From assembly GCF_009731355.2 (NCBI RefSeq), contig NZ_AP022810.1:3190001-3254000 (forward strand): a DNA stretch of 64,000 nucleotides, written 5' to 3'. The notes beneath the pieces are model-generated. The model was not told the DNA's origin. It searched no databases and saw nothing but the letters and a program-made list of their open reading frames with translations. The translations under genes were made by a program, and so were the position numbers. Source of the DNA: Desulfuromonas sp. AOP6. Lineage in GTDB: Bacteria; Desulfobacterota; Desulfuromonadia; Desulfuromonadales; SZUA-540. Of this stretch, positions 1,028 to 37,832 are shown in pieces (the first letter of the stretch is position 1; every line of letters begins with the position of its first letter).

Positions 1028-2094
1028 CGCGCCTCCTCGACCCTGGCGCCATGGCGGGCTTTTTCCACGTCATCGGCCAGGATGCGCTCCCCTGCGGAGA
1101 GTCCGGAGAGGATTTCCACCTCGTCACCGAGCTGACGACCTGTCTTCACCAGGCGGTAGTGCAAAATGTTTTTATCCAGGGCGTAGACTCCCGCCAGCTG
1201 GCCCCGTTGCAGAAGAGCCGAGCGGGGAATAAACAGGGTTGTCCGATCCGCGTCCGGTACGAACACCCGGGCGAAGAGCCCGGAAGTGAGTCCATCCTCG
1301 GCACCGAGAGCCACTTTGACCTGGAAGGTACGGCTCAGGGGATCGGCGGCTGGCAGCACTTCGGTAACGGCGCCTTCCAGTTGTCTTGAAAGGGAAGGAA
1401 TCTCGACCCGAAGCCGGGTGCCGGAAACAAAACGGCCCGCATAGGATTCGGGCACATCTACCCTTACCCGCCAGGAGCCCTGGCGTTCGATTTCCAGCAG
1501 GGGGGTACCAGGCAGGATCGTGCTCCCTTCCTCGACCAGATGCCGCAGGACTCGGCCATCATAGGGGGCCAGGATACGGGTCTGGGCCGAAGAGATTCTG
1601 GCAGCCTCAACGGCCGCGGCGGCTGCCGCCTGTCCGTCCCGGGCCACGTTCAGGTCGGCCACTACCTGGTCCAATTCCTGGGGTGTTATCGCTTCTTTTT
1701 CAAACAGCCGCTGGTAACGGGCAAAAGTCTTTTCCGCCAGTTCCAAACGGGCTGTCGCCATGCCCAAAGCGCCTTCGGCCTCTTGCAATTTCCTGCCGGC
1801 CGTGTTGTCGCCAATGGTCGCCAGCAGTTCCCCCTTTTTCACCAGACTTCCTTCACGGGCTGCCAGGCGCAGAAGACGGCCGTCGGTACGTGCCGTGAGA
1901 AGGGCCCGGTCAGAACTTTCCACCGTCGCGACCAGGGCTCCCTCTTCCAGGGCCACCGACGTCGTCACGGTATGAAACCGCAGGTCCGTCAGGAGCGTCT
2001 CTTCCAAATCCGTCTGCCCTGGTGAAATCTTCCCGTCGCAGGCCGTCAGGAACAGAAGGGTCACCGCTGCGCAATAGGTCATCAGTTTTTTCAC
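1024..2094 (-). CDS. RND efflux periplasmic adaptor (HlyD/MFP family lipoprotein)
   Basis: Membrane fusion protein (356 aa) that bridges the RND pump at 1-1027 and the TolC-type protein at 2091-3425. The N-terminus is a lipoprotein signal with lipobox LTAC, predicting a lipidated Cys19. Next come a barrel-sandwich half (GRLLRLAAREGSLVKKGELLATI), an alanine-rich coiled-coil hairpin around residues 100-170, the second lipoyl half (APYDGRVLRHLVEEGSTI), and beta-barrel and membrane-proximal domains. It overlaps both neighbours by 4 bp, so the order is outer membrane factor, adaptor, pump in one operon. Length is typical for the family. Confidence 0.92.
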   Translation of the reverse strand: MKKLMTYCAAVTLLFLTACDGKISPGQTDLEETLLTDLRFHTVTTSVALEEGALVATVESSDRALLTARTDGRLLRLAAREGSLVKKGELLATIGDNTAGRKLQEAEGALGMATARLELAEKTFARYQRLFEKEAITPQELDQVVADLNVARDGQAAAAAAVEAARISSAQTRILAPYDGRVLRHLVEEGSTILPGTPLLEIERQGSWRVRVDVPESYAGRFVSGTRLRVEIPSLSRQLEGAVTEVLPAADPLSRTFQVKVALGAEDGLTSGLFARVFVPDADRTTLFIPRSALLQRGQLAGVYALDKNILHYRLVKTGRQLGDEVEILSGLSAGERILADDVEKARHGARVEEAR

Positions 2095-3425
2095 GGGTTC
2101 ATCTCCTCGGTGGGCAGAAAAGTCTGCAAAAAGGTGCCCTGTTGAAAATGGCGGCTAGCCAGGGAAAAAATGAGTTGGGCCTCGGCCTGAATAGACTCCA
2201 GGCGAATGCGTTCCACGGCCGTCTGGGCCGCCAGCAGGTCGGCCATGTCCGTCAGACCTTCTGCGTAACGCTCCCTGAGCAGGCGCAGGCTTTCGGCGCC
2301 CTGAACCTCGCTTTGACGGGCCGTTTCCAGGTTCAGGCGGGCTTCTTCTATGCGACGCCCTGCCTCATCACTCTGCAGAGCCGCCTGACGAACCGCTTCC
2401 TGCCGCCGCCACTGCACTGCTTCACGGGTAGCCTCGGCCCGACTCCGGCTCTGCGAACGCCGGAAGCCGTCAAAAAGCTCCCAGGTCAGGCCGGCATGCA
2501 GCATCCAGCTTTCCGCTTCGGTGCCGAGAGGCGACGAGCCGTCGTGGAAAACATAGGAGGCACCAAGCCCCACTTTGGGGAAATAGGCCGCCCGGCTTTG
2601 CTTCACGGCCAGCCTGGCTTCTTCCTCCCGGAGGAACAAAGCCCTGATATCGCCTCGATCAATCTCAGAGTCGACGACAGGATCAGGAAAATCTTCCGGG
2701 CGCAGGGGACTGCCAAGACTGACATCGCTGCCATCACGCCCCAGAGCCAAGGCCAGGGCTTGGCGCGCCTGGGCGACGTCGTTGGATGCACGCCGCTCTT
2801 GACGCTGTGCATCCGCAAGAAAAACGGCCGCCTGCAAAGTATCCGCCTTCAGTCCCAGCCCTGCCGCCTGGCGCTCTTGAGCGAGGCGAAGCACTTCTTC
2901 AGCCTGACGGCGCGCGCTTGCTGCCCAGTCCTGCGCGCCCACGGCCTGCTGTAACCCCAGGTAAGCCCGCAGCAGGGCGAATCCAGCCTCTTCTTCGGCC
3001 CAGCGGGCCTGTTCATTGGCAGCGGCCGCCCCCTTTTGAGCGCGCCGATAGCCATAGGAGACATCCGGGTCATAAAGCACCTGATTCAGATCAAACCGTG
3101 TTTCGAAGTCCTTGCGATCATCAGGGTTATTGTAGTAATCAGCCCCCCGGATAAGGAGATCCTCCTGGTTCAGGCTGATAAAGAGACTGCTACCCGGTTC
3201 ATTCGTCCAGGTAAATCTCTCGGAAAAGGTCAGGCTGGGGAGATAGCGGCTGCGCGCTTCCCCTGCCGCACCAACCGCCGCCTCGGCGTCCTTGCGGGCC
3301 GCTGCGGCAAAAGGCCGTGACTGGATTGCCTCCTGCAGGGCCGTTGAAAAATCGAGGGCTTCCGCCCAGATGGTGGTGGGCAACGACAATAGAAAGAATA
3401 GAAACAAGGACATCCTGGGGTGCAT
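2091..3425 (-). CDS. TolC family outer membrane efflux protein
   Basis: Outer membrane channel of the tripartite pump (444 aa from the chosen start). An N-terminal Sec signal (about residues 1-22, ending IWA) precedes two repeated OEP domains rich in long Ala/Glu/Arg helices, as in TolC/OprM. A GTG at 3434 also opens the frame, but AAAGGTGG lies about 5 nt before the ATG at 3425, so the ATG is preferred. It is first gene of the operon; its 3' end overlaps the adaptor start by 4 bp. A promoter and an AT-rich inverted repeat lie just upstream (see 3452-3485). Confidence 0.9.
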   Translation of the reverse strand: MHPRMSLFLFFLLSLPTTIWAEALDFSTALQEAIQSRPFAAAARKDAEAAVGAAGEARSRYLPSLTFSERFTWTNEPGSSLFISLNQEDLLIRGADYYNNPDDRKDFETRFDLNQVLYDPDVSYGYRRAQKGAAAANEQARWAEEEAGFALLRAYLGLQQAVGAQDWAASARRQAEEVLRLAQERQAAGLGLKADTLQAAVFLADAQRQERRASNDVAQARQALALALGRDGSDVSLGSPLRPEDFPDPVVDSEIDRGDIRALFLREEEARLAVKQSRAAYFPKVGLGASYVFHDGSSPLGTEAESWMLHAGLTWELFDGFRRSQSRSRAEATREAVQWRRQEAVRQAALQSDEAGRRIEEARLNLETARQSEVQGAESLRLLRERYAEGLTDMADLLAAQTAVERIRLESIQAEAQLIFSLASRHFQQGTFLQTFLPTEEMNP

Positions 3426-3451
3426 CAGGGCCACCTTTCATGTATGCAAAA

Positions 3452-20577: not shown

Positions 20578-21516
20578 CTATTTGACGTCCTGCAGATATT
20601 TGTAGAAAGGCGAGTCGGTTCCGATCACCAGCCGGCCATTCTTGCCGATGACCTTCTTGTAGGACTCGAGGGTGCGCAAAAAGGAGTAGAATTCCTTGTC
20701 GCGGCTGTAGGCCGTGGCATAGATGCCCGCCGCTTCGGCGTCGGCCTTGCCCCGAATTTCCAGGGCCAGACGGTAGGCTTCCGAGGTAATCTGCTTGAGC
20801 TCGCGCTCCATCTTGCCCAGAATCTCGGCTTTTTCTCCCTCACCTTCCGAGCGATATTCAGCCGCCACCTGGTTACGCTCGTTAACCATGCGTTCGTAGA
20901 CGCGGGTCAAAACCTGATCGACATAATTGATGCGTTTGATCTGCACATCGATAAGCTCAATGCCGTACTCAGGGGTGCTGGCTCGGGCCTTGCCGAGCAG
21001 GCCCTCCAGAATTTCCTCGCGGCCGACCAGTTCGCTTTCACTGACAACTTGGCCTTCGACCTCAAACACCTCTACTTTCCCCTCGCCCTTCGGCGACTTG
21101 TAATCGCTGCCGCGCACGAGTTCGGCCAGCAGACGACCGGACACGGCATCGCGCACCACCGAGTCGATGATGTCGTCGAGCCGGCTCTGGGCACCGACTT
21201 GCGTCGCCACGGTCTTGTAGAAGAGCAGGGGATCGACAATACGCCAGCGCGCCGTGGTGTCGACCCAGATGAAGCGCTTGTCCTTGGTGGGAATCTGATT
21301 GGGGGCGCTGTCCCACTTCATGATGCGCTTTTCAAAGCGCTTGACCTCTTGAATGAGGGGTATTTTGACGTGTATTCCCGCCCCCCTGACATCCCCCACG
21401 GGCTTGCCAAACTGGGTGACGATGGCCTGTTCGGCCTCCGTGACCACAAAAAGACTACTGCTGATGCCGACGACAGCGACAAAGACCAGCAGGATAATTA
21501 CGGGTAATATTTTCAT
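20578..21516 (-). CDS. hflC: FtsH regulator HflC (SPFH domain)
   Basis: 312-residue type II membrane protein with one N-terminal TM segment (about residues 4-24) and an SPFH/band-7 domain (about 20-200), followed by a coiled-coil region rich in Glu/Arg/Ala (ERNQVAAEYRSEGEGEKAEI) and a short C-terminal domain. The typical HflC stretch TVVTQFGKPV appears here as IVTQFGKPVGDVRGAGIHVK. It forms a large periplasmic cage with HflK around FtsH hexamers. It overlaps hflK by 4 bp (ATGA), so the two are co-translated. Confidence 0.95.
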   Translation of the reverse strand: MKILPVIILLVFVAVVGISSSLFVVTEAEQAIVTQFGKPVGDVRGAGIHVKIPLIQEVKRFEKRIMKWDSAPNQIPTKDKRFIWVDTTARWRIVDPLLFYKTVATQVGAQSRLDDIIDSVVRDAVSGRLLAELVRGSDYKSPKGEGKVEVFEVEGQVVSESELVGREEILEGLLGKARASTPEYGIELIDVQIKRINYVDQVLTRVYERMVNERNQVAAEYRSEGEGEKAEILGKMERELKQITSEAYRLALEIRGKADAEAAGIYATAYSRDKEFYSFLRTLESYKKVIGKNGRLVIGTDSPFYKYLQDVK

Positions 21517-22538
21517 TGTTTCCCTCCCTGACTCTCGCTGCGCATCGGCAGCAGCGGCAGCAGGTTACTCCCGGCGCCGTCCATCACGTAGATCTCTTCC
21601 AGCTTCGGCAGCACCTCTTCCATGGTTTCGAGGAAAATGCGGCGCTTGGTCACTTCAGGCGCCTTGCGGTATTCAAGCAGCAGGGCTTCAAAACGGTTGG
21701 TCTCACCGCGGGCTTTGTTGATGCGTTCGATGGCGTAGCCTTCAGCCTCTTCCACCGTTTTCTTCGCTTCGCCACGAGCCCGGGGCACTTCGCGGTTGAA
21801 CTGCTCGCGGGCCTGGAAGATCATACTCTCCTTCTGCTGCTCGGCCTCGTTGACCTCGTTGAAAGCTTTTTTGACGGGATCAGGCGGCGTGACATCCTGA
21901 AACTTGACGGTGACAACACGCACGCCGATATCGTACTGATTAAGGGTTTGCTGCAGATCCTGCTGGATGAGGGAGGCCAGCATGGCGCGCTCGGTGGTCA
22001 ATACGTCGGTGACGTTGCTGTTGCCGATAACCTTGCGCACCATGGCCTCACTGACGTCGCGGATGGTGTCCACCGGATTTTTTAGTTGGAAAACGTACTT
22101 ATAGGGATCGATCACCTGAAACTGGACGATCCATTCCACATCGCTGACATTGAGGTCACCGGTCAAGGTCAGTGATTCTTCTTCCAAGCCTTTCTTGGTA
22201 TAGGTCGTGCGTTCTCCCGGCAGAACCGTGCGGAAACCAAACTCTTCTTTAAAGACACGGCCGGTCTTCACCAAATAGACGCGATCGATGCCAAAAGGCA
22301 GCTTGAAGTGGAGTCCCGGCTGTGAATAACCAGTGAATTTGCCGAAACGCAAGATAACCCCGGTCTCCTCCGTGTCGACCTTGTAAAAGCTGCTCATGCC
22401 GATAAAAACTGCCAGGACCGCAACCGCGACGAGAAAGAGATTTTTACTAGGACGAAACTCTTTCTTGAGCTTCTGCCCTATGTCGATGATTTTCTTTTCC
22501 AGGTCCTCTGCCGAGGGACCTTCTCCCCAATTTTGCAT
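21513..22538 (-). CDS. hflK: FtsH regulator HflK (SPFH domain)
   Basis: 341-residue partner of HflC. A short cytosolic N-terminus is followed by a TM segment (about residues 38-57, LFLVAVAVLAVFIG), an SPFH domain with the signature GVILRFGKFTGYSQPGLHFK, and a helical coiled coil ending in a flexible tail. The N-terminal cytosolic Gly-rich domain of E. coli HflK is mostly missing, as in many delta-proteobacterial forms. GGGAGGATCA precedes the ATG. A 7-bp GC hairpin lies in the leader at 22562-22582. Confidence 0.95.
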   Translation of the reverse strand: MQNWGEGPSAEDLEKKIIDIGQKLKKEFRPSKNLFLVAVAVLAVFIGMSSFYKVDTEETGVILRFGKFTGYSQPGLHFKLPFGIDRVYLVKTGRVFKEEFGFRTVLPGERTTYTKKGLEEESLTLTGDLNVSDVEWIVQFQVIDPYKYVFQLKNPVDTIRDVSEAMVRKVIGNSNVTDVLTTERAMLASLIQQDLQQTLNQYDIGVRVVTVKFQDVTPPDPVKKAFNEVNEAEQQKESMIFQAREQFNREVPRARGEAKKTVEEAEGYAIERINKARGETNRFEALLLEYRKAPEVTKRRIFLETMEEVLPKLEEIYVMDGAGSNLLPLLPMRSESQGGKQ

Positions 22539-22667: not shown

Positions 22668-25600
22668 CTATTCCCCCAGGGACGACAGACGACCACCGGC
22701 CAGTTCTTCCGCCAGACTCGCCAGGATCAGGGCCCGTTCTGCCTGACGGAGCAGGCTGCTCGCCTGCAGCAAAGCGGCTTCGGCGTCGAGCACCTCGTTG
22801 ACCGATCCTCTCTGCGCCTCGTACTTGAGCCGTTCGAGACGCAAAGCCTCACGGGCCTGCACCATCCCTTTGCCGTGAGCCTGTTGCCTGACACGGGCGC
22901 TGGCGACCTCGGCGCGGGCGACGGCCAGTTCACGCCGCGCGTTAAGTTGAGCCTCGCGCAGGCGGGCCCGGGCCCTATCTGCTTCAGCGCGGGCCTGCGT
23001 CACCTTGCCGGCCCGTAAACCGCCGTCCAACAGCGGAACGGTCAGCTTCACGCCGACCGTCGCATCGGTCTGGCTGTCGTCGCCGGGCACACCGGCCGCC
23101 ATCGACAGGGGATCATCGGCCCCGTAATATCCGGCACTGGCAAAGAGCCGCAGCTCCGGCAGGTAAGCCCGCTTCGCCCCGACGGGCTGTCGGCGGGCAG
23201 ACTCGACCTCGGCCTGCCGCGCCGCCAGGTCATCGCGGTGGCTCCCCCCATCCCTGTTTTCCGCCGAGGGTTGGGTCACTGCGGCGGGATCGACGTCGGT
23301 CAACGGCGGCAGTTCACCCTCACATCCCAAGACCGCCAGTAAGGCGTATTCAGCCTCGACGAGGGCAGCCTTCACCTCGGCCAGCTGACTTTCCACCTCA
23401 GCCAGACGCACCTCGACCTTGAGCTTGTCCACCCGCGCCGTCCGCCCCTGCCGCCACAGCTGCTCGGCAGCACGGTCGAGAGCAGACAGACTGTCCAGGG
23501 AGGCGAGGGTGGCCAGGCGAATATCGCGCAGGGACAATACCTGCAAAAACTGTTGGGAAATCTGAAAGGCCACCTCGTCCCTGGCTCGGGCCGCCTGATG
23601 CCGGACCCCCTCCTGCTGGGCCCTGGCGGCCTTCAGACGGGCCCGGGTCGCACCGAAGTCGGCGAGAAGCAGATCGGCGCTGGCCGTGGCCTGATAGACG
23701 CGATGGGCAAACCCCTGATTCTGGGGCGCCAGCCCCGGCGCCATGTTGTGCCGCTCCTGCGACCAGGCGGCGCTCCCTTCCAGGCGCAGCTGCACCCCGC
23801 GCGGGGCCCCGGCGCTCCGCACCAGGCCCTGGCTGCGTTCTACTTCGGCGGCGGCCTGGGCCAGAGCCGGACTGTGTTCGAGGCCATAGGCCACCGCCTC
23901 CGTCAGCGACAGGGGCGCGGGCAGCTCGGCCCCCCAGGCCAGGTCCGTCTGGGGCGGCAGCAGGGCGCTGAACAGGAGAAGGGTAACCGCCGGTTTTCTG
24001 GCCGCGCGCCACAGCATCCTCAGTTTCTCCTGCGCGTCATCCAGAAGTACGTAGACCAGAGGCAGATAGACCATGGTCACCACCGTCCCTACCAGCAGAC
24101 CGGAGGCGGCGGCGATACCCAGGGGGCTCATGCGCTCCAGGCCGACGGCCATCTCGAAGATCAGGGGCGAAAAACCGATGACCGTGGAGGTCGCCGTCAT
24201 GAAGATGGGGCGCAGTCGCAGCCGCACCGAGGCGATGATGGCTTCGTCACGGCTCATCCCCTCCCGGCGCGCCTCCAGAATAAAGTCGAGCATGAGGATG
24301 GCGTTATTGACGATGGTGCCGCCGAGCAGAATGATCCCCATCAGGGCCGGCATGCAGAAGGGTTTATCGAAGAGCAGCAGGCCCCACACCGCCCCGGCCA
24401 CGGCCAGGGGAATGGAGAGGACGATGGCCAATGGTGGCAGAAAAGAGCGAAACATGGCGAAGAGCAGAATGAAGAGGAGCACCAGGCCGATGAGCAGCGC
24501 CCGCCCCATTTCGCCCTGGCTCTGGCCCATGTCGCGGGCCGTGCCGGCGATCTCCAGCGCGTAACCGGCCGGCAGGGGCATGTCCCGCAGACGCTGTTCG
24601 GCTAAACTGGTGACCTGGGCGATGGTCAGCACCTGGTTGCCCGCCGTCAGATCGATGGTCGGGCTCAAATTTTCGCGGGTGATGAAGGGGGGCTGCACTT
24701 CGCTGCGCACCTGTGCCAGGGTGCCGAGCTTGATCGGCCCCTGGGCCGTGGGAATATCCACCTGCAGCAAAGCCTCGGGTTCATCGATCTGGCTCTGTTG
24801 ATAGCGCAGGCGGATGGGGATATCGAGATAGCCCTGCAGGCGCAGCTCACTGCCCGCCATCCCCTGCACCGCCTGGCGCAGCGACTCGGCCACTCCACCG
24901 GCGGAGGTTCCGTAGAGGCGGGCCAACTCGGCATCGACCGCCACCGTCTGCTGCACCTTGTCGCGGTACCAGGAACGCCGCAGATCCGTCAGACCGGGGA
25001 GGCCCCGCAGGCGCTGCAGCGCTTCGTCCGCCAGGCTGTCGAGCATCGGCAGCTCCGGACCCGTGATCACCAGGTTGAAGGGAGCCTTGGTGGTCGCCAC
25101 CGGGGTGGCTCCATACTCGGAGACCCGGAAAGTGCGCACCCCCTCAAGGCGCCGCAAGCCCTGCCGCCAGCGCTCCTGAATCTGCCAGATATCGGCCTCG
25201 CGCTCGGTACGGGAGATGAGGTGAATGGTGAGCTTGGCGCTCTGGGTGGTGGTCCCGCCACCGCCGAAGCTGACCGCCTGCGGCTCCGACCCGACCACCG
25301 CCGAAATGCTCTTGACCTCGGGGGACTGACCGAGCAGGGCTTCCACCCGGCTCAGCACCTCTTCCACCTGGCGGGGGCTGGCCGAGGCATCCGTGTCGAA
25401 CTCCACCAGGGCGATCCCCGTGTCCATGGGCGGCATCTGCTCGCCACCCAGCAGAGGCCGCACCACGCGCATGGTGAAGACCAGAAAAACCAGGGCGAGG
25501 ATGACAAAGAGCAGGCGGCGGCGCAGGACCAGGCCCACCAGGCCGACATAGAAATCGCTCAATCGGTCGAGGCCCGTCTCCACCGGATTTGCCAGCCGCT

Positions 25601-27110
25601 CCAGGCCCCGCCGCTGCCGGCGTTGCCCGCCGAGCAGGCGGGAGGCCACCAGGGGGATGACGGTCAGGGAGACGAGCAGCGAGGTGACCAGAGTGGCGAT
25701 AATGATGATATTCAAGGGGGCCATCACCCGGCCCGTGTAGCCCTGGGTAAAGATTACCGGCACCAGCACCACCACCGTGGTCAGCATGCCGGCGGTGACG
25801 GCCAGGGAGACCTGGCGCGTTCCCTCCAGCGCCGCCTGGGCGGGATCTTCCCCCGCCAGGTCGTGATGACGGCGATAGATGTTCTCCAGCACCACCACCG
25901 AGGCATCAACGACCATGCCGACGGCGATGATCAGCGCCGACAGGGTCACCATGTTCAGCGTGTAGGGACTGAACCACAACACGACCAGCGCCCCCAGAAA
26001 GGAGAGGGGGATGGAGACGCTTACTGTCGCGGCGGCACGCAGGTTGCCGAGGAAGAAAAAGATGACCAGCACCGTGAGGATGACGGCCTGCACCAGGGAG
26101 GAACGCATGCCGCTGACGTTGAGATCGATGAGCGGCTGCTGGTCGTCGGTTATCTCGAAGAGCAGGTCGGGATAGCGGGCCTCGAGGCCCGGCAGGGCAG
26201 CTTTAAGATTTTTGATCGCCTTGACCGTCTCCCCCTTTTCCGGGCGCAGCAGATTCAGGGCGATAGCGGCCTTGCCGTTGCCATGGTAGAGGCTGCGCGC
26301 ATCGGCCGTTTCCAGCCGAACCTCGGCGACATCGCGCAGATAGACGGTCTGGCCCTGGGCGCTGCGCAGCGGCAGGTTCTGCAAGGCCGCCGCCGAGGCA
26401 AATTCGCCGGCGACGTTGACCAGGTATTCCCGGCGATCGCCGTAGAGGATGCCGGCCGGCGCCGAGACGTTCTGCCCCGCCAGGGCCGCCATCACCGTTT
26501 CCAGGCCGAGGCCGTGGGCACGCAGGGCCTCCCGGTCAAGGCGCACCGACACCTCGGCCCGGTGGCCGCCAAAGACCTGCACATCGCCGATGCCGTCAAG
26601 GCGCAGCAGGCTGTCCTTGAGATCGTTTTCGGCCAGCAGGCGGACATCCGCCAGCGTCTTCAGACTGTCCGGCCGGGGGGAGAGGGCCAGGGTCAACAGA
26701 GGGCGGTTGGAATCGGTAATGCGAAAGAGACGGGGCTGGGCCGCGCCGGCCGGCAGGCTCCCCTGCACGCGGGCGACTGCATTCTGCACATCGGTGACCG
26801 CCTCGCCAATAGGTTTGTCGTAGGCGAACTCCACGTTGATGGAGGAGACCTCATCGCGGGAGGTGGAACTGACCCGGGTGACGCCCGAGAGGGTGTGCAG
26901 CTCCTTTTCCAGCACCTGGGTCACCTGGTCGGCCATGTCGCGCGCCACTGCTCCCGGCTTCACCGTGACCACCGCCACCTGCGGCGGCACCGTGTCGGGA
27001 AAGAGATCCGTCGGCGTTTTCCAGAAGGCGAAACCGCCGAGAGCGAAGACGACCATCGCCAGCGCCGCCACCAGGTGCGGCTGCTTCAGCGCGAAACGGG
27101 GCAGACTCAT
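22668..27110 (-). CDS. RND efflux permease fused in frame to a TolC-type outer membrane factor
   Basis: A single 1480-codon frame. Residues 1-1031 are a complete RND permease (12 TM, two porter repeats) with the usual block MVVDASVVVLENIYRRHHD near residue 400 and LGGTIVNNAILMLDFILEARR near residue 920. Residues 1032-1480 are a complete outer membrane factor: a signal-peptide-like segment (KPAVTLLLFSALLPP), then two long-helix OEP repeats (SLTEAVAYGLEHSPALAQA onward). At codon 1032 an ATG (24017) is preceded by AGGAGA (24026-24031) with a 9-nt spacer, so the OMF could also be made alone. The adaptor and a MarR regulator are upstream. RND-OMF fusions are known in some Bacteroidetes metal pumps, but this junction keeps the OMF signal. 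Confidence 0.92.
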   Translation of the reverse strand: MSLPRFALKQPHLVAALAMVVFALGGFAFWKTPTDLFPDTVPPQVAVVTVKPGAVARDMADQVTQVLEKELHTLSGVTRVSSTSRDEVSSINVEFAYDKPIGEAVTDVQNAVARVQGSLPAGAAQPRLFRITDSNRPLLTLALSPRPDSLKTLADVRLLAENDLKDSLLRLDGIGDVQVFGGHRAEVSVRLDREALRAHGLGLETVMAALAGQNVSAPAGILYGDRREYLVNVAGEFASAAALQNLPLRSAQGQTVYLRDVAEVRLETADARSLYHGNGKAAIALNLLRPEKGETVKAIKNLKAALPGLEARYPDLLFEITDDQQPLIDLNVSGMRSSLVQAVILTVLVIFFFLGNLRAAATVSVSIPLSFLGALVVLWFSPYTLNMVTLSALIIAVGMVVDASVVVLENIYRRHHDLAGEDPAQAALEGTRQVSLAVTAGMLTTVVVLVPVIFTQGYTGRVMAPLNIIIIATLVTSLLVSLTVIPLVASRLLGGQRRQRRGLERLANPVETGLDRLSDFYVGLVGLVLRRRLLFVILALVFLVFTMRVVRPLLGGEQMPPMDTGIALVEFDTDASASPRQVEEVLSRVEALLGQSPEVKSISAVVGSEPQAVSFGGGGTTTQSAKLTIHLISRTEREADIWQIQERWRQGLRRLEGVRTFRVSEYGATPVATTKAPFNLVITGPELPMLDSLADEALQRLRGLPGLTDLRRSWYRDKVQQTVAVDAELARLYGTSAGGVAESLRQAVQGMAGSELRLQGYLDIPIRLRYQQSQIDEPEALLQVDIPTAQGPIKLGTLAQVRSEVQPPFITRENLSPTIDLTAGNQVLTIAQVTSLAEQRLRDMPLPAGYALEIAGTARDMGQSQGEMGRALLIGLVLLFILLFAMFRSFLPPLAIVLSIPLAVAGAVWGLLLFDKPFCMPALMGIILLGGTIVNNAILMLDFILEARREGMSRDEAIIASVRLRLRPIFMTATSTVIGFSPLIFEMAVGLERMSPLGIAAASGLLVGTVVTMVYLPLVYVLLDDAQEKLRMLWRAARKPAVTLLLFSALLPPQTDLAWGAELPAPLSLTEAVAYGLEHSPALAQAAAEVERSQGLVRSAGAPRGVQLRLEGSAAWSQERHNMAPGLAPQNQGFAHRVYQATASADLLLADFGATRARLKAARAQQEGVRHQAARARDEVAFQISQQFLQVLSLRDIRLATLASLDSLSALDRAAEQLWRQGRTARVDKLKVEVRLAEVESQLAEVKAALVEAEYALLAVLGCEGELPPLTDVDPAAVTQPSAENRDGGSHRDDLAARQAEVESARRQPVGAKRAYLPELRLFASAGYYGADDPLSMAAGVPGDDSQTDATVGVKLTVPLLDGGLRAGKVTQARAEADRARARLREAQLNARRELAVARAEVASARVRQQAHGKGMVQAREALRLERLKYEAQRGSVNEVLDAEAALLQASSLLRQAERALILASLAEELAGGRLSSLGE
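24026..24031 (-). promoter_or_regulatory. Internal Shine-Dalgarno for a separate outer membrane factor
   Basis: AGGAGA on the minus strand lies 8-9 nt before the in-frame ATG at 24017 (codon 1032). Initiation there would yield a 449-residue TolC-like protein beginning MLWRAARKPAVTLLLF, with a signal-like hydrophobic stretch. Confidence 0.5.
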
Positions 27111-28285
27111 GGCCGGACCTCCACGGCTTCCCCGCCGGAGAGACGGTTCCAGCCCAGATAGGTGCTGAGCACCACGGTGACCCCCTCCTCAAGACCGCTT
27201 ACCGCCGCCAGCCCGCCCTCCGACAGCAGCAGCTGCACCGGAAGGGGACGGGTGACGCCCTCCTCGACGACGAAGACCGCCAACCCCCCTTCCGGCGACG
27301 GAATCAGGCTCTCTTCCGGCACTAGGATGACATCCGCCGCCCGCTCCACCACCGTGGATACGGGGACATAGGCTCCGGGCCGCCAGGAGGTCACGGCCGG
27401 CAGCTCCGCCTCCATGGTCAGGGTCTGGTCGGGATTGACGGTAGGATAAAAGCGGGAGATGGCCAGAGCCTGTTTCTGCCCGTCTCCTTCGACGATGACC
27501 TGGCGCTCTTTTTCGACCAGGGGCACATCCTTTTGGGGTATGTCGAAACGTATCTTCAGGCGGCTGTGGTCCTCAATTTCCAGCAGGCGCTGGCCCGGTG
27601 CCGCCAGATCGCCGGGATCGACCAGGCGGCGGGCAACAAGGCCATCAAAGGGGCTGCGGATTTCCGTGTAGGCCAGGCGCGCTGCCGCCTCCTGTTGCTG
27701 CTGCCGCTGAGATTCCACCAGACTGCGGGCCGCCTGCAGTGACTGCAGGGTCGCCTCCAGCTCCCCGCGCACCTGATTCAGGCGATCGGCCGTAGCCTCA
27801 GCCTGGGCCGGGGCGATGGCACCTGCCGATGCCAGAGTGCGGTCCCGTTCCTCTTCCTTCTCCCAGAAGACCAGACTCTGCCGCAGGCTGCTGACCTTGG
27901 CCGCTACCGCCTCGGCCTGGTCACGGGCATTGGCCACCCGGGCAGCCGCGCCCTGCAGCGCCCGGCGCAGCTCCGTGTCGTCGAGGCGCAGCAGTACCTC
28001 GCCCTGCCGAACCTTTTCTCCTTCCCGCGCTTTGACCTCGCCGACCACCGAGGTGATCCGGCTCGAAATGCCGGCACTCTGCCAGGCTTCCACCCGGCCC
28101 AGGTAGGTACGCGTGCGCGTCAGGTCACCCCGCTCGCTTACAGCCGTACGGACCACCGTCGGCTGCAGGGTAGGACGTGGCGCCTCGGCCAGCTCCATTT
28201 TTTTGCGCGCGACCAGCAACAGGGCCGCGGCCAGTACGACGAGCAGGACAAGCACTCCAAGAAGGCGTTTCTTCATCATCTTCAA
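27107..28285 (-). CDS. RND efflux periplasmic adaptor (HlyD/MFP family)
   Basis: 392-residue membrane fusion protein with an N-terminal uncleaved TM or signal anchor (residues 6-27, LLGVLVLLVVLAAALLLVA). The split lipoyl domain is at about residues 60-100 (GEVKAREGEKVRQGEVLLRL) and 205-235 (IRSPFDGLVARRLVDPGDLA), separated by an Ala/Gln-rich coiled-coil hairpin. Beta-barrel and membrane-proximal domains follow. It overlaps the MarR stop and the RND start by 4 bp each, giving a fully coupled marR-adaptor-pump operon. No lipobox Cys is present, unlike the other two adaptors in the window. Confidence 0.92.
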   Translation of the reverse strand: MKMMKKRLLGVLVLLVVLAAALLLVARKKMELAEAPRPTLQPTVVRTAVSERGDLTRTRTYLGRVEAWQSAGISSRITSVVGEVKAREGEKVRQGEVLLRLDDTELRRALQGAAARVANARDQAEAVAAKVSSLRQSLVFWEKEEERDRTLASAGAIAPAQAEATADRLNQVRGELEATLQSLQAARSLVESQRQQQQEAAARLAYTEIRSPFDGLVARRLVDPGDLAAPGQRLLEIEDHSRLKIRFDIPQKDVPLVEKERQVIVEGDGQKQALAISRFYPTVNPDQTLTMEAELPAVTSWRPGAYVPVSTVVERAADVILVPEESLIPSPEGGLAVFVVEEGVTRPLPVQLLLSEGGLAAVSGLEEGVTVVLSTYLGWNRLSGGEAVEVRP

Positions 28286-28722
28286 CTCCCCGAATTTTCC
28301 AGGTTATGGCGCACCCGGGTAAGGACCCCGATGGCCTGTGCGATTTCGGTGCTCTTGATCCCCCGGCTGGCCTGTTCCAGCACGTCGCGGGCGTAAAAGG
28401 AAATCTCCGCCCACATGGAATGGGCTTTTTCCGTGATGATCAGGCGGTTGATCCGGCGGTCCCTGGGGTCGGGCTGACGCTCCACCCAGCCGTCACGCTC
28501 CATGCGGTCGACGAGACGGGCCGTGGAGGCGGCGGTGATAAAGAGCTTGTCGCCCAGTTCATTCTGGGAAAGGGGGCCCAGCGCCATCAGGTGAGCGAGG
28601 GCGAGAACATGGACCGGGCTAATGCCGGTGCCCTGCAGGCGTTTCTCCAGAGCCTGGCGAAAGGCCTTAAAGGTGAGGGAGCAATGGAAGCCGATGCTGT
28701 CGGCCGGATTAAAGAATGGCAT
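28282..28722 (-). CDS. MarR family transcriptional regulator
   Basis: 146-residue winged-helix repressor. Helices around residues 45-75 contain LAHLMALGPLSQNELGDKLFITAASTARLVDRMERDGWVERQ-type recognition sequence (shown in part: SQNELGDKLFITAASTA), followed by the wing DPRDRRINRLIITEKA, a clear MarR signature. It is first in the operon with the RND adaptor and fusion pump, so it probably represses its own pump operon and is released by pump substrates. A palindrome TTAGCCTGCTAA lies between the promoter boxes upstream. Confidence 0.93.
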   Translation of the reverse strand: MPFFNPADSIGFHCSLTFKAFRQALEKRLQGTGISPVHVLALAHLMALGPLSQNELGDKLFITAASTARLVDRMERDGWVERQPDPRDRRINRLIITEKAHSMWAEISFYARDVLEQASRGIKSTEIAQAIGVLTRVRHNLENSGS

Positions 28723-33286: not shown

Positions 33287-34693
33287 CTAAAACGCCCCGC
33301 CGCCCAGCACTTTGTAAAGGGAGACCAAGTTCTCCAGGCGCGCCAGCCGAACGGCAACCAGGCCCTGGCGGGCGCCGTACAAGGAGCGCTGGGAGTCGAG
33401 CAGGCTGAGGAAACTGTCCACGCCCCGCGTATAACGCAGCTCGGAAAGGTTGTAAGTGGCCGCCGTCGCCTCGACCAGGGCCTGCTGGGCCTGCAGTTGA
33501 TCGACGATCGTTTCCTGCCGGACGAGGGCGTCGGCCACCTCGCGGAAAGCCCCCTGGATGGCCCCCTCGTAGCGGGCCAGGGAGATCTCCCGGTCGACCT
33601 TGGAGACCTGCAGGCGCGCCCGCAGGCTGCCCGCCGTGAAGATGGGCAGATCCAGCCGGGGCGAGAAGGCCCAGGCCCGGGAGGCGTCGTCGAAGAGGGT
33701 AGAGAGCTCCGAGCTGCCAAAGCCGGCCGAGGCCGTCAAGGCGATGCGCGGGAAGAAGGCGGCCCGGGCCGCACCGATATTGGCGTAAGCGGCTTTGAGC
33801 TGGTATTCGGCTGCCAGGATATCCGGGCGCTGCTGCAGCACCTCCGAAGGGACACCGGCGGGGATCTCCGTCACGGCCGCCAGTTCCGTCACCGGCGCCG
33901 CGGGCAGCAGGTCAGGCGGAAATTCCTGTCCCACCAGCTGGCGCAGGGCGTTCTCCCCCTCGGCCACGAGGCTGTCGTAACGGGCCCTATCCACCCGCGC
34001 CGCCTCAACGCTGGTCTGGGCCTGGCGCAGGTCGAGCTCGGAAGCGACTCCGGCGTCATAGCGCCGCTGGGTCAGCGCCAGAGTCTCCCGGTAGCTGGCC
34101 AGGGTCTCTTCGGCCAATTGCCGGCGTTCCCGGTCGGCGGCCAGAACCAGGTAGGCCCTCGCCACCTCCGAGACCAGAGCCAGGCGGGCGCTGCGATAGG
34201 CTTCTTCGCTGGCCAGATAGGTCTGAAGCGCCTGCTTTTTCAGGCTGCGTAAGCGCCCGAAAAAGTCGATCTCCCAGGCCGTCGTCGCCAGGGACACATT
34301 GTACTGCTCCAGATGGATAACGCGCCCAAAGCCTGACGTATCGGGGACCCGCTGGCGGTTGTAGCCGGCCCCGGCCTGCAGGCCAGGGAAGAGCTCGGAA
34401 CGCTGGATGCGGTATTGGGCGCGGGTCCGCTCAATGGTCAAAGCCGTCACCCGCAGGTCGCGATTGCTTTCCAGGGCCAGCCTGATGAGTTCCTTGAGGT
34501 TTCCATCCACAAAAAAGTCCTGCCAGGACATGGCTGCATAAGCAGGTGCCGCCGGATCTTTATCCCCTTCCAGGTTGGCGTCAGCGGCCCAGGATGTCGG
34601 CACAGGAGCCTCCGGCCGGCTGTAATGAGGCGCCAGCGTACAGCCGCTTAGCAGCAAAACAGTCAATAGCAGGCAGATTGCCATTCTATGCAT
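33287..34693 (-). CDS. Outer membrane efflux lipoprotein, NodT/OprM family
   Basis: 468 residues from the ATG at 34693 (AGGAGG 9 nt upstream, overlapping the end of the pump gene). Signal with lipobox LLSGC, lipid-anchored Cys18, then the typical mature start CTLAPHYSRPEAPVPTSW (TLAPxYxRP motif of NodT proteins). Two OEP repeats with coiled-coil helices form the trimeric channel. It is the last gene of the tetR-adaptor-RND-OMF operon, 1 bp after the pump stop. Confidence 0.93.
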   Translation of the reverse strand: MHRMAICLLLTVLLLSGCTLAPHYSRPEAPVPTSWAADANLEGDKDPAAPAYAAMSWQDFFVDGNLKELIRLALESNRDLRVTALTIERTRAQYRIQRSELFPGLQAGAGYNRQRVPDTSGFGRVIHLEQYNVSLATTAWEIDFFGRLRSLKKQALQTYLASEEAYRSARLALVSEVARAYLVLAADRERRQLAEETLASYRETLALTQRRYDAGVASELDLRQAQTSVEAARVDRARYDSLVAEGENALRQLVGQEFPPDLLPAAPVTELAAVTEIPAGVPSEVLQQRPDILAAEYQLKAAYANIGAARAAFFPRIALTASAGFGSSELSTLFDDASRAWAFSPRLDLPIFTAGSLRARLQVSKVDREISLARYEGAIQGAFREVADALVRQETIVDQLQAQQALVEATAATYNLSELRYTRGVDSFLSLLDSQRSLYGARQGLVAVRLARLENLVSLYKVLGGGAF

Positions 34694-34694
34694 A

Positions 34695-37600
34695 TCAGTG
34701 GCCCTCCTTGGTCGGTGCAGGCTTGGCCTTGAAAAGTCGGCGGATGGTGACGAAAAAGACCGGTACGAAGAATATCGCCAGCACCGTGGCGGTGACCATG
34801 GCGCCGTTGACGGCGGTCCCCATGGCGTTCTGGGCACCCGAGCCCGCCCCCGTGTTGAGGGCCAGCGGGAGCACGCCGAAGAAGAAGGCCAGCGAGGTCA
34901 TCAGGATGGGACGCAGGCGCAAGCGGACAGCTTCCAGGGTCGCCTCGACCAGGCCCATGCCGCGTTCCATTTCTTCTTTGGCAAACTCGACGATGAGGAT
35001 GGCATTCTTCGACGACAGGCCGATTGTGGTCAAAATGGCGATCTGGAAATACACGTCATTGGAGTAACCGCGGGAGGTCGCCGCCACGACGGCGCCAATG
35101 ATCCCCAGGGGCACAACCAGCATGACCGAAAAGGGAACCGCCCAACTCTCGTAGAGAGCCGCCAGACAGAGAAAGACCACCAGCAGGGAGATGGCGTAGA
35201 GGGCCGGAGCCTGGGCGCCGGCCAGTCTTTCCTCGTAGGACAGGCCAGTCCATTCGTAGCCGATACCCGGGGGCAGCTGCGCCGCCAGCGCTTCCATCTG
35301 GGACATGGCTTCTCCCGAGCTCACGCCGGGAGCCGCCTGCCCCATGATCTGTATGGAGGGCATCCCGTTGTAACGCTCCAGGCGCGGGGAACCATACTGC
35401 CAATGGGCCGTGGAAAAGGCCGAGAAGGGCACCATCTCGCCGCGATTGTTGCGGGCGTACCAGCTACCGATATCCTCGGGAAGCATGCGATACTGGGGGG
35501 CCCCCTGAACGTAGACCCTTTTGACCCGGCCATTCTGGATAAAGTCATTGACATAGCTGCTCCCCCAGGCCGTGGCCAGCAGGCTGTTGATCTGGGCCAG
35601 GGGGATCCCCAGGGCTCCGGCGCGCACGTCATCAACATCCAGCTTATACTGGGGTGTATCGTCCTGGCCGTTGGGGCGCACCGCCACCAGGTTGGGACTC
35701 TGCATTGCCATGCCCAGCAGCTGGTTGCGGGCCGCCATGAGCTTTTCGTGGCCGAGACCGCCGCGGTCCTGCAGCTGAAAGTCGAAGCCGTTGGCGTTGC
35801 CCAGTTCCATTACCGCCGGCGGCACGAAGGCAAAGACCATGGCATCTTTGATCTGGCTGAAGGCGCCCATGGCCCGCCCGGCAATCGCCGGAGCCTTAAG
35901 GGCAGGATCCTGGCGAAGCTCCCAGTCTTTCAGGCGGATAAAGGCGATCCCCATATTCTGGCCGCGTCCGGCGAAACTGAAACCGGCCACGGTCATGAGG
36001 GAATCAATCGCTTCTCCCTCTTTTTCAAGAAAATGATGCTCCACCTGCTTGATCACTTCCATGGTTCTGGCCTGGGTGGCTCCCGCCGGCAGCTGCAGCT
36101 GCACCATGATGATGCCCTGGTCTTCCTCCGGCAAAAAGGCCGTGGGCATACGCAGAAAGAGCCAGGCCATGACCACGACGATGAGCCCGTAGATCACCAT
36201 GAAACGTCCGGTGCGCCTCAGCATGCGGCCGACGAGGGACTGATACATATTATTGCTGCGGTCGAACCATTTGTTGAACCAGCGGAAGAAACCCTTGAAC
36301 CAGCCGCTGTCCGCCGCCACATGCCCCTTGGCCACCGGTTTTAGCAGGGTGGCGCAGAGAGCTGGGGTCAGGATGACTGCCACCAGCACCGACAGAGCCA
36401 TGGCCGAGACGATGGTGATGGAGAACTGCCGGTAGATAACCCCGGTGGAACCGCTGAAAAAGGCCATGGGGACAAAAACCGCCGACAGCACCAGGGCGAT
36501 GCCAACCAGGGCGCCGATGATCTGGTCCATGGACTTGATGGTCGCTTCCCGCGGCGGCAGGCCCTCCTCCGTCATGATGCGCTCGACGTTCTCCACCACG
36601 ACGATGGCGTCGTCCACCAGCAGGCCGATGGCCAGCACCATGGCGAACATGGTCAGGGTATTGATGGAGAAGCCCGCGGCCGCCAGCACGCCGAAGGTGC
36701 CGAGCAGCACCACCGGCACGGCGATGGTGGGGATGAGGGTGGCGCGGATGTTCTGCAGAAAGAGAAACATGACGACGAAGACCAGGAAGACGGCCTCGAT
36801 GAGGGTGCGCACCACCTCTTCGATGGAAATCTTGACGAAGGGGGTGGTGTCGTAGGGATAGACGACCTTCATCCCCTGCGGAAAGAACCCGGACAGCTCC
36901 ACCATCTTCTCTTTGATGCGCTCGGCCGTATCGAGGGCATTGGCACCGGCGGCCAGCTTGATCCCCAGTCCGGCGGCCGGGCTCCCTTTGTAGCGGGCCA
37001 GAATGTCGTAGTTTTCGGTGCCGATGGCCACCTCAGCCACGTCCTTCAGGCGGACGGTCGAGCCGTCGGCGTTGGTCCGCAGCACAATGGCCTCAAACTG
37101 TTCCGGCGTCTGCAGAAGGGTTCTGGCCGTTATGGTGGCATTGAGCTGCTGCCCCGCCACGGCCGGCAAGCCGCCGAACTGGCCGGCGGATACCTGGGCG
37201 TTCTGCGCCTGCAGCGCCGTCACCACATCTGCCGGGATCAGCTTGTAATTGGTCAGCTTGGTCGGGTTGAGCCAGATGCGCATGGCGTTCTGGGAACCGA
37301 AGAGCTGCACCTCGCCGACCCCTTCGAGGCGGCTGAGAATATCCTGGATATTGGAGACGGCATAGTCGGCGAGGTCGTAGCGGGTCATGGAGCCATCCTC
37401 CGAGACCAGGCCGACAATCAGCAGAAAGTTGCGCGTCGACTTGACGACCGAGATGCCCTGGCGCTGGACCACTTCGGGCAGCAGGGGTGTCGCCAGCTGC
37501 AGCTTGTTCTGGACCTGCACCTGGGCCAGATTGGGGTCGGTGCCGGCCTTGAAGGTCAGCGTCACCGTGCCCAGGCCGGCCGAGTCGCTGTTGGAGGCCA

Positions 37601-37832
37601 TGTAAATCAGGTTGTCGATCCCGTTCATCTTCTGTTCGATGATCTGGGTGACCGTGTCCTGCACCGTCTGGGCCGAGGCCCCCGGATAGACGGCGTTGAT
37701 GGATATCTGCGGCGGCGCGATGGAAGGGTACTGCGAAACCGGCAGCGTCTTGATCGCCAGCAGGCCGGCCAGCATGATGATAATTGCTATGACCCAGGCA
37801 AATATGGGTCGGTCTATGAAAAATCGGGCCAT
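34695..37832 (-). CDS. RND multidrug efflux permease, HAE1 family (AcrB/MexB-like)
   Basis: 1045-residue inner-membrane pump, full length. Starts [20 protein letters not shown], the classic AcrB N-terminus. Hallmarks include the [18 protein letters not shown] porter start, the proton-relay Asp pair in [16 protein letters not shown] (TM4, about residues 400-415), and the C-terminal repeat [18 protein letters not shown] with the conserved TM10 lysine. It works with the adaptor at 37844 and the NodT-type OMF at 33287. Likely substrates are hydrophobic drugs, bile-like compounds or solvents. Confidence 0.96.

Follow-up and report, generated by a model that had tools for sequence, protein, structure and literature searches.

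Fusion of an RND permease and a TolC-type channel in a single open reading frame of Desulfuromonas sp. AOP6, with a proposed internal signal peptide at the seam

Introduction

Tripartite RND pumps of the HAE-1 type, such as AcrAB-TolC, MdtABC-TolC and MexAB-OprM, are built from three components, and the pump and the channel are usually treated as separately made parts that need to meet. RND permeases comprise 12 helices and end in the cytoplasm. A single frame that encodes an inner-membrane protein and then an exported one is exemplified by FbcH of Bradyrhizobium japonicum, a precursor of cytochrome b and cytochrome c1 whose internal signal peptide is cut by signal peptidase.

The locus analyzed here lies in a stretch of 64,000 nucleotides from Desulfuromonas sp. 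AOP6 (hereafter the window). Its efflux system also has three components but differs from AcrAB-TolC, MdtABC-TolC and MexAB-OprM in that the permease and the channel are encoded by one open reading frame (ORF) and not by two genes. The encoded protein resembles FbcH in its arrangement, a multi-helix inner-membrane protein and then an exported protein in the same frame. However, both products of FbcH stay in the inner membrane, whereas the second product is here predicted to be an outer-membrane channel. CusB-CusF fusions have been reported in a publication that does not describe any natural RND-channel fusion (PMC3548706), and such a fusion is not described either in two other ones (PMC7726332, PMC10434189). 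More generally, no account of a natural RND-channel fusion turned up in our search of the open-licence literature, which also covered internal signal peptides and FbcH. The individual components are known, and fused proteins already have entries in databases; it is the natural fusion itself for which no published description was found.

Organization of the fused gene and of its operon

The fused gene is an ORF of 1480 codons carried by the minus strand (22668..27110, read from 27110 to 22668) and open throughout, residue n of the protein corresponding to window position 27110-3(n-1). It is the last gene of an operon with the order marR - adaptor - [pump::channel], and its ATG overlaps the stop codon of the adaptor gene (atga at 27110-27107). 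The features are:

28282..28722, minus strand, MarR-family regulator, head of the operon (Pfam MarR_2, E 5e-17)
27107..28285, minus strand, periplasmic adaptor (HlyD/RND_mfp) gene of the same operon (TIGR01730, E 5e-44, over its cut-off)
24042..27110, minus strand, RND permease part (HAE-1-like), residues 1-1023 (Pfam ACR_tran)
23931..24041, minus strand, junction, residues 1024-1060, proposed internal signal peptide
24015..24017, minus strand, internal ATG (M1032), with AGGAGA 8 nt upstream
22671..23930, minus strand, TolC-type outer-membrane channel domain, residues 1061-1480 (OEP, TIGR01844)

An initial sequence-only reading had proposed that a full RND permease is followed in the same frame by a full channel. 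This holds, except for the strand, the ORF being on the minus strand. The Pfam profile ACR_tran covers residues 5-1023 over its positions 3-1020/1021 (E 1e-208), hence the full length of about 1020 positions expected for a permease. The closest NCBIfam model is NF033617, whose score (613.7 bits) is under its curated cut-off of 1250 bits, and the permease is also under the cut-off of all the curated multidrug or metal subfamilies tested in NCBIfam. Therefore, its name is justified at the superfamily level only. The best solved relative of this part is MdtB and, on family membership alone, the substrates may be drug-like compounds.

The channel part carries the two OEP stretches expected for this family in Pfam, the best one (residues 1292-1465, E 1e-38) being over the gathering score, and matches the TolC family model TIGR01844 over residues 1066-1476 with a score under the curated cut-off. 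The AlphaFold model of residues 985-1480 is of moderate quality (mean pLDDT of 69), with confidently predicted channel helices and a poor global geometry. Foldseek searches with this model retrieved VceC (E 1e-8), TolC (E 1e-7), CusC and OprM (overall range 1e-8 to 1e-5), with matches that span most of the length of these four channels but with a TM of about 0.3.

Conservation of the fusion

Nine other genomes or contigs carry the same fusion, with 48-95% identity (lineage 1). The closest protein is encoded in the same genus by G001 and shares 95% identity over 1480 aa. The clade further includes proteins from G051 (55%), from Malonomonas rubra DSM 5091 (57%; Thermodesulfobacteriota, Desulfuromonadia, Desulfuromonadales), from a Desulfuromonadales MAG, from a Desulfobacteraceae MAG and, elsewhere in the phylum, from G492, G297, G277 and G584. 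The adaptor gene is kept upstream of the fused gene in the relatives. A stop codon or a frameshift at the junction in all close relatives had been put forward as an observation that would undo the fusion. This is not what is observed: all the relatives of the fused clade have an open frame, with the exception of one that has deleted most of its channel.

An odd domain combination could by itself arouse the suspicion of a lately lost stop codon, hence of accidental read-through, or of a sequencing error that joins two genes, and nothing else points that way. By contrast, isolates and MAGs from several families and classes share this fusion, its RND and channel halves group alike in trees, and its channel half is under purifying selection (dN/dS of 0.21). 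This conservation refutes an artefact or a recently lost stop codon, an explanation that we regard as virtually excluded. The comparison of these sequences indicates that the fusion is real and old and does not result from a sequencing error.

Among plasmid records, none covers 80% of the fusion of the window, and the DNA search returned short patches only; spread of this fusion by plasmids was considered and set aside in view of this search.

The seam between pump and channel

The sequence-only reading had noticed a signal-peptide-like segment retained at the junction. This segment is indeed present, and its pattern is kept across the 43 fused ORFs compared. In the window, the junction reads ...LLDDAQEKLR-M1032-LWRAARKPAVTLLLFSALLPPQTDLAWG↓AELPAP... 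(the arrow marks the candidate cut; upstream DNA gcAGGAGAaactgaggATG), with a basic linker (about residues 1026-1039), a hydrophobic segment (PAVTLLLFSALLPP, residues 1040-1053) and a candidate signal peptidase I site, AWG↓A, after G1060. The succession of a basic linker, a hydrophobic stretch and a signal-peptidase-I-like site is conserved while its letters drift. The dN/dS ratios between the window and its 95%-identical congener amount to 0.058 (pump), 0.56 (junction) and 0.21 (channel). Purifying selection therefore acts on both domains, and the seam is drifting.

Within lineage 1 (ten fused members compared), five candidate sites fall in one shared alignment column: AWG↓A in the window, ASA↓A in G001, VQA↓S in G051 and VRA↓M twice. 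The candidate sites of the remaining members are GRA↓E, PRA↓E, AAA↓E and AYA↓A. Of the 43 fused ORFs, 37 contain a strict [AV]xA motif before or at the end of the hydrophobic run, compared to 19.6% of the hydrophobic runs from the RND part of the same proteins, these ORFs being related sequences and their counts not independent trials. The loose small-x-small form occurs in all 43 but also in 81% of the RND-part runs and, taken alone, does not discriminate. Accordingly, the complete internal segment (basic start, hydrophobic core, small-x-small site) is found in 43/43 fused ORFs with the loose form and in 37/43 with the strict one. The AWG site of the window has the loose form only, fails strict [AV]xA and is among the weaker sites. 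The length of the uncharged, hydrophobic runs (11-26 residues in the 43 fused ORFs, mostly 14-18) overlaps with that of RND helices, and therefore does not decide between a signal peptide and a helix.

The internal ATG

The ATG preceded by AGGAGA that the sequence-only reading had reported at the junction is present. Such a start would give a typical signal peptide, and two products could then be made, the long protein and a free channel that has its own Shine-Dalgarno sequence and signal peptide, initiated at the ATG of residue 1032. However, the AGGAGA doubles as Gln-Glu-Lys codons of the permease frame and is kept in the congener G001, in which the ATG is replaced by ACG; the aligned column contains Thr, Ser or Ala in four relatives, so that the ATG is private to the genome of the window. 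Furthermore, the linker contains an ATG in only three of the 43 fused ORFs and any in-frame ATG, GTG or TTG in 12, the 31 others having none. A conserved internal start is thus ruled out, and the description of this ATG as an intact start, in the sense of a functional element, does not survive the comparison, since the closest relative has lost it and most of the fused homologues lack it. M1032 is probably no conserved functional start, as judged from these alignments. Since the start codon is not conserved and 31/43 ORFs have no candidate, internal initiation cannot be the general route to the channel; the production of two products in this way appears unlikely, and the internal start could be a private addition in the strain of the window.

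Proposed maturation of the fused protein

The fused protein is probably a polyprotein whose internal signal peptide would be cut by signal peptidase I. Because the C-terminus of the permease is cytoplasmic, a channel fused behind it must be exported anew, and the seam supplies the means. The ribosome would make the 12-helix permease, then the short basic linker, then the hydrophobic segment. The latter, acting as an internal signal peptide, would enter the Sec translocon and lead the channel that follows it into the periplasm. Cleavage by signal peptidase I would then take place after the small-x-small motif (AWG↓A in the window; ASA↓E, VQA↓S, VRA↓M and similar in relatives). The freed channel would reach the outer membrane and join the permease trimer and the adaptor, encoded by the overlapping upstream gene, in an ordinary tripartite pump. 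The putative benefit of the fusion would be a coupled, 1:1 and co-localised synthesis. Export, cleavage, assembly and benefit are all deduced here from sequence. The sequence-only reading had offered, as its first option, a single chain processed by signal peptidase after the loss of a stop codon; the processing is the best-supported mechanism, while the proposed origin is not supported (see below).

The protein could also stay uncleaved, its hydrophobic segment forming a permanent 13th helix that ties the channel covalently to the pump. The single open frame and the uncharged runs of mostly 14-18 residues, which could nearly span a membrane, are compatible with such a form. However, TolC-type channels reach about 100 Å into the periplasm and have their N-terminal region in the equatorial domain or at the outer-membrane end (PMC8277102). 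The candidate cut site is separated from the channel domain by about 6-10 residues, and from these dimensions we infer that so few residues cannot bridge the gap in a canonical tripartite pump, the N-terminus of the channel being out of reach of an inner-membrane tether. In addition, an anchor would have no use for a cleavage-site pattern, yet this pattern persists in a segment that changes fast. An uncleaved two-membrane protein is thus rather unlikely, and it is improbable that an uncut polypeptide attached to both membranes makes a pre-tethered tripartite pump of unusual geometry. Under the favoured reading, cleavage by signal peptidase I, the fusion is proposed to be a case of an internal signal peptide that feeds an outer-membrane protein.

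A second fusion lineage

Two other RND::OEP proteins, of 1502 and 1476 aa (G013 and G050), are only 25% identical to that of the window. A search with this second lineage gave strong matches in 32 of the 277 genomes of the class, including a few partial matches, and most of them are single frames of about 1470-1520 aa. Lineage 2 was also found on replicons of Gemmatirosa (Gemmatimonadota) and Persicobacter (Bacteroidota). In two lineage 2 fusions (L112 in G165 and L113 in G164), one TAG is reported inside the matched stretch.

The fused proteins of the two lineages fall into different well-supported clades of the RND tree (FastTree), and three changes of the fusion label are required, consistent with two gains and one loss. 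Each lineage forms a single group in the channel tree (support of 99). These phylogenies indicate that the RND::channel fusion arose at least twice, independently. The proteins of lineage 2, including that of Persicobacter psychrovividus (WP_338399011.1, 1467 aa), share with the window protein the order of domains and a seam with a signal-peptide-like segment, but are about 25% identical to it overall and belong to a separate clade in both trees. The seam of lineage 2 is of the same kind as that of lineage 1: all 29 class sequences examined (29/29) can be read as [AV]xA and then the channel start, with a variable -2 position. Since the search pattern itself demanded [AV]xA, this count shows the presence of a site only and is not an unbiased frequency. 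In the two Gemmatirosa proteins (L090 and L092), 60 and 77 residues separate the last permease helix from the channel start, compared to about 35-46 in most other fusions.

WP_338399011.1 is annotated simply as a permease subunit. The annotation "efflux RND transporter permease subunit" may therefore conceal a channel.

Gene order, origin and reversal of the fusion

The loss of the stop codon between two overlapping genes is too simple an origin. All 12 unfused operons compared (that of the near relative G020 and eleven others) have the order channel - adaptor - pump, whereas all the fused operons examined have the order adaptor - [pump::channel], with no upstream channel within the stretch read. 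Because the sister operons place the channel first, upstream of the adaptor, a simple stop loss is not supported in this gene order. Therefore, the channel moved, or a different channel gene was acquired, before or during the fusion. The channel of the unfused near relative (G020, L063, 3734-5278), located upstream of the adaptor gene, has a lipoprotein-like signal (LNGC), a feature in which the fused channels differ.

The relative that has deleted most of its channel is a Desulfoluna MAG (L076, 5990-6290). Its pump stops inside the former seam; behind the stop, and still in frame, lies a remnant of the channel C-terminus (53% over 30 aa, E 2e-4) that matches the sister protein better. In the RND tree, L076 is sister to the fused Desulfobacteraceae protein (support of 100). 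Its sequence and position indicate that a natural deletion has eliminated most of the channel but left a pump frame of full length, hence a reversal of the fusion. Since the pump was kept at full length, the two halves are separable. A polyprotein that evolved at least twice, together with a natural reversal, allows one to ask whether co-synthesis matters for tripartite assembly.

Other genes of the window

As noticed in the sequence-only reading, the two other RND operons of the window have separate channels, OEP proteins encoded at 33287-34837 and 2091-3434. In the second RND operon (33287-37832), the frame of the separate channel, read from a GTG at 34837, shares about 140 nt with the end of the permease frame (34695), and the real channel start is probably further in than this GTG. 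Directly downstream of the fused gene, the window carries the genes of two neighbouring SPFH/Band 7 proteins (20578-22538).
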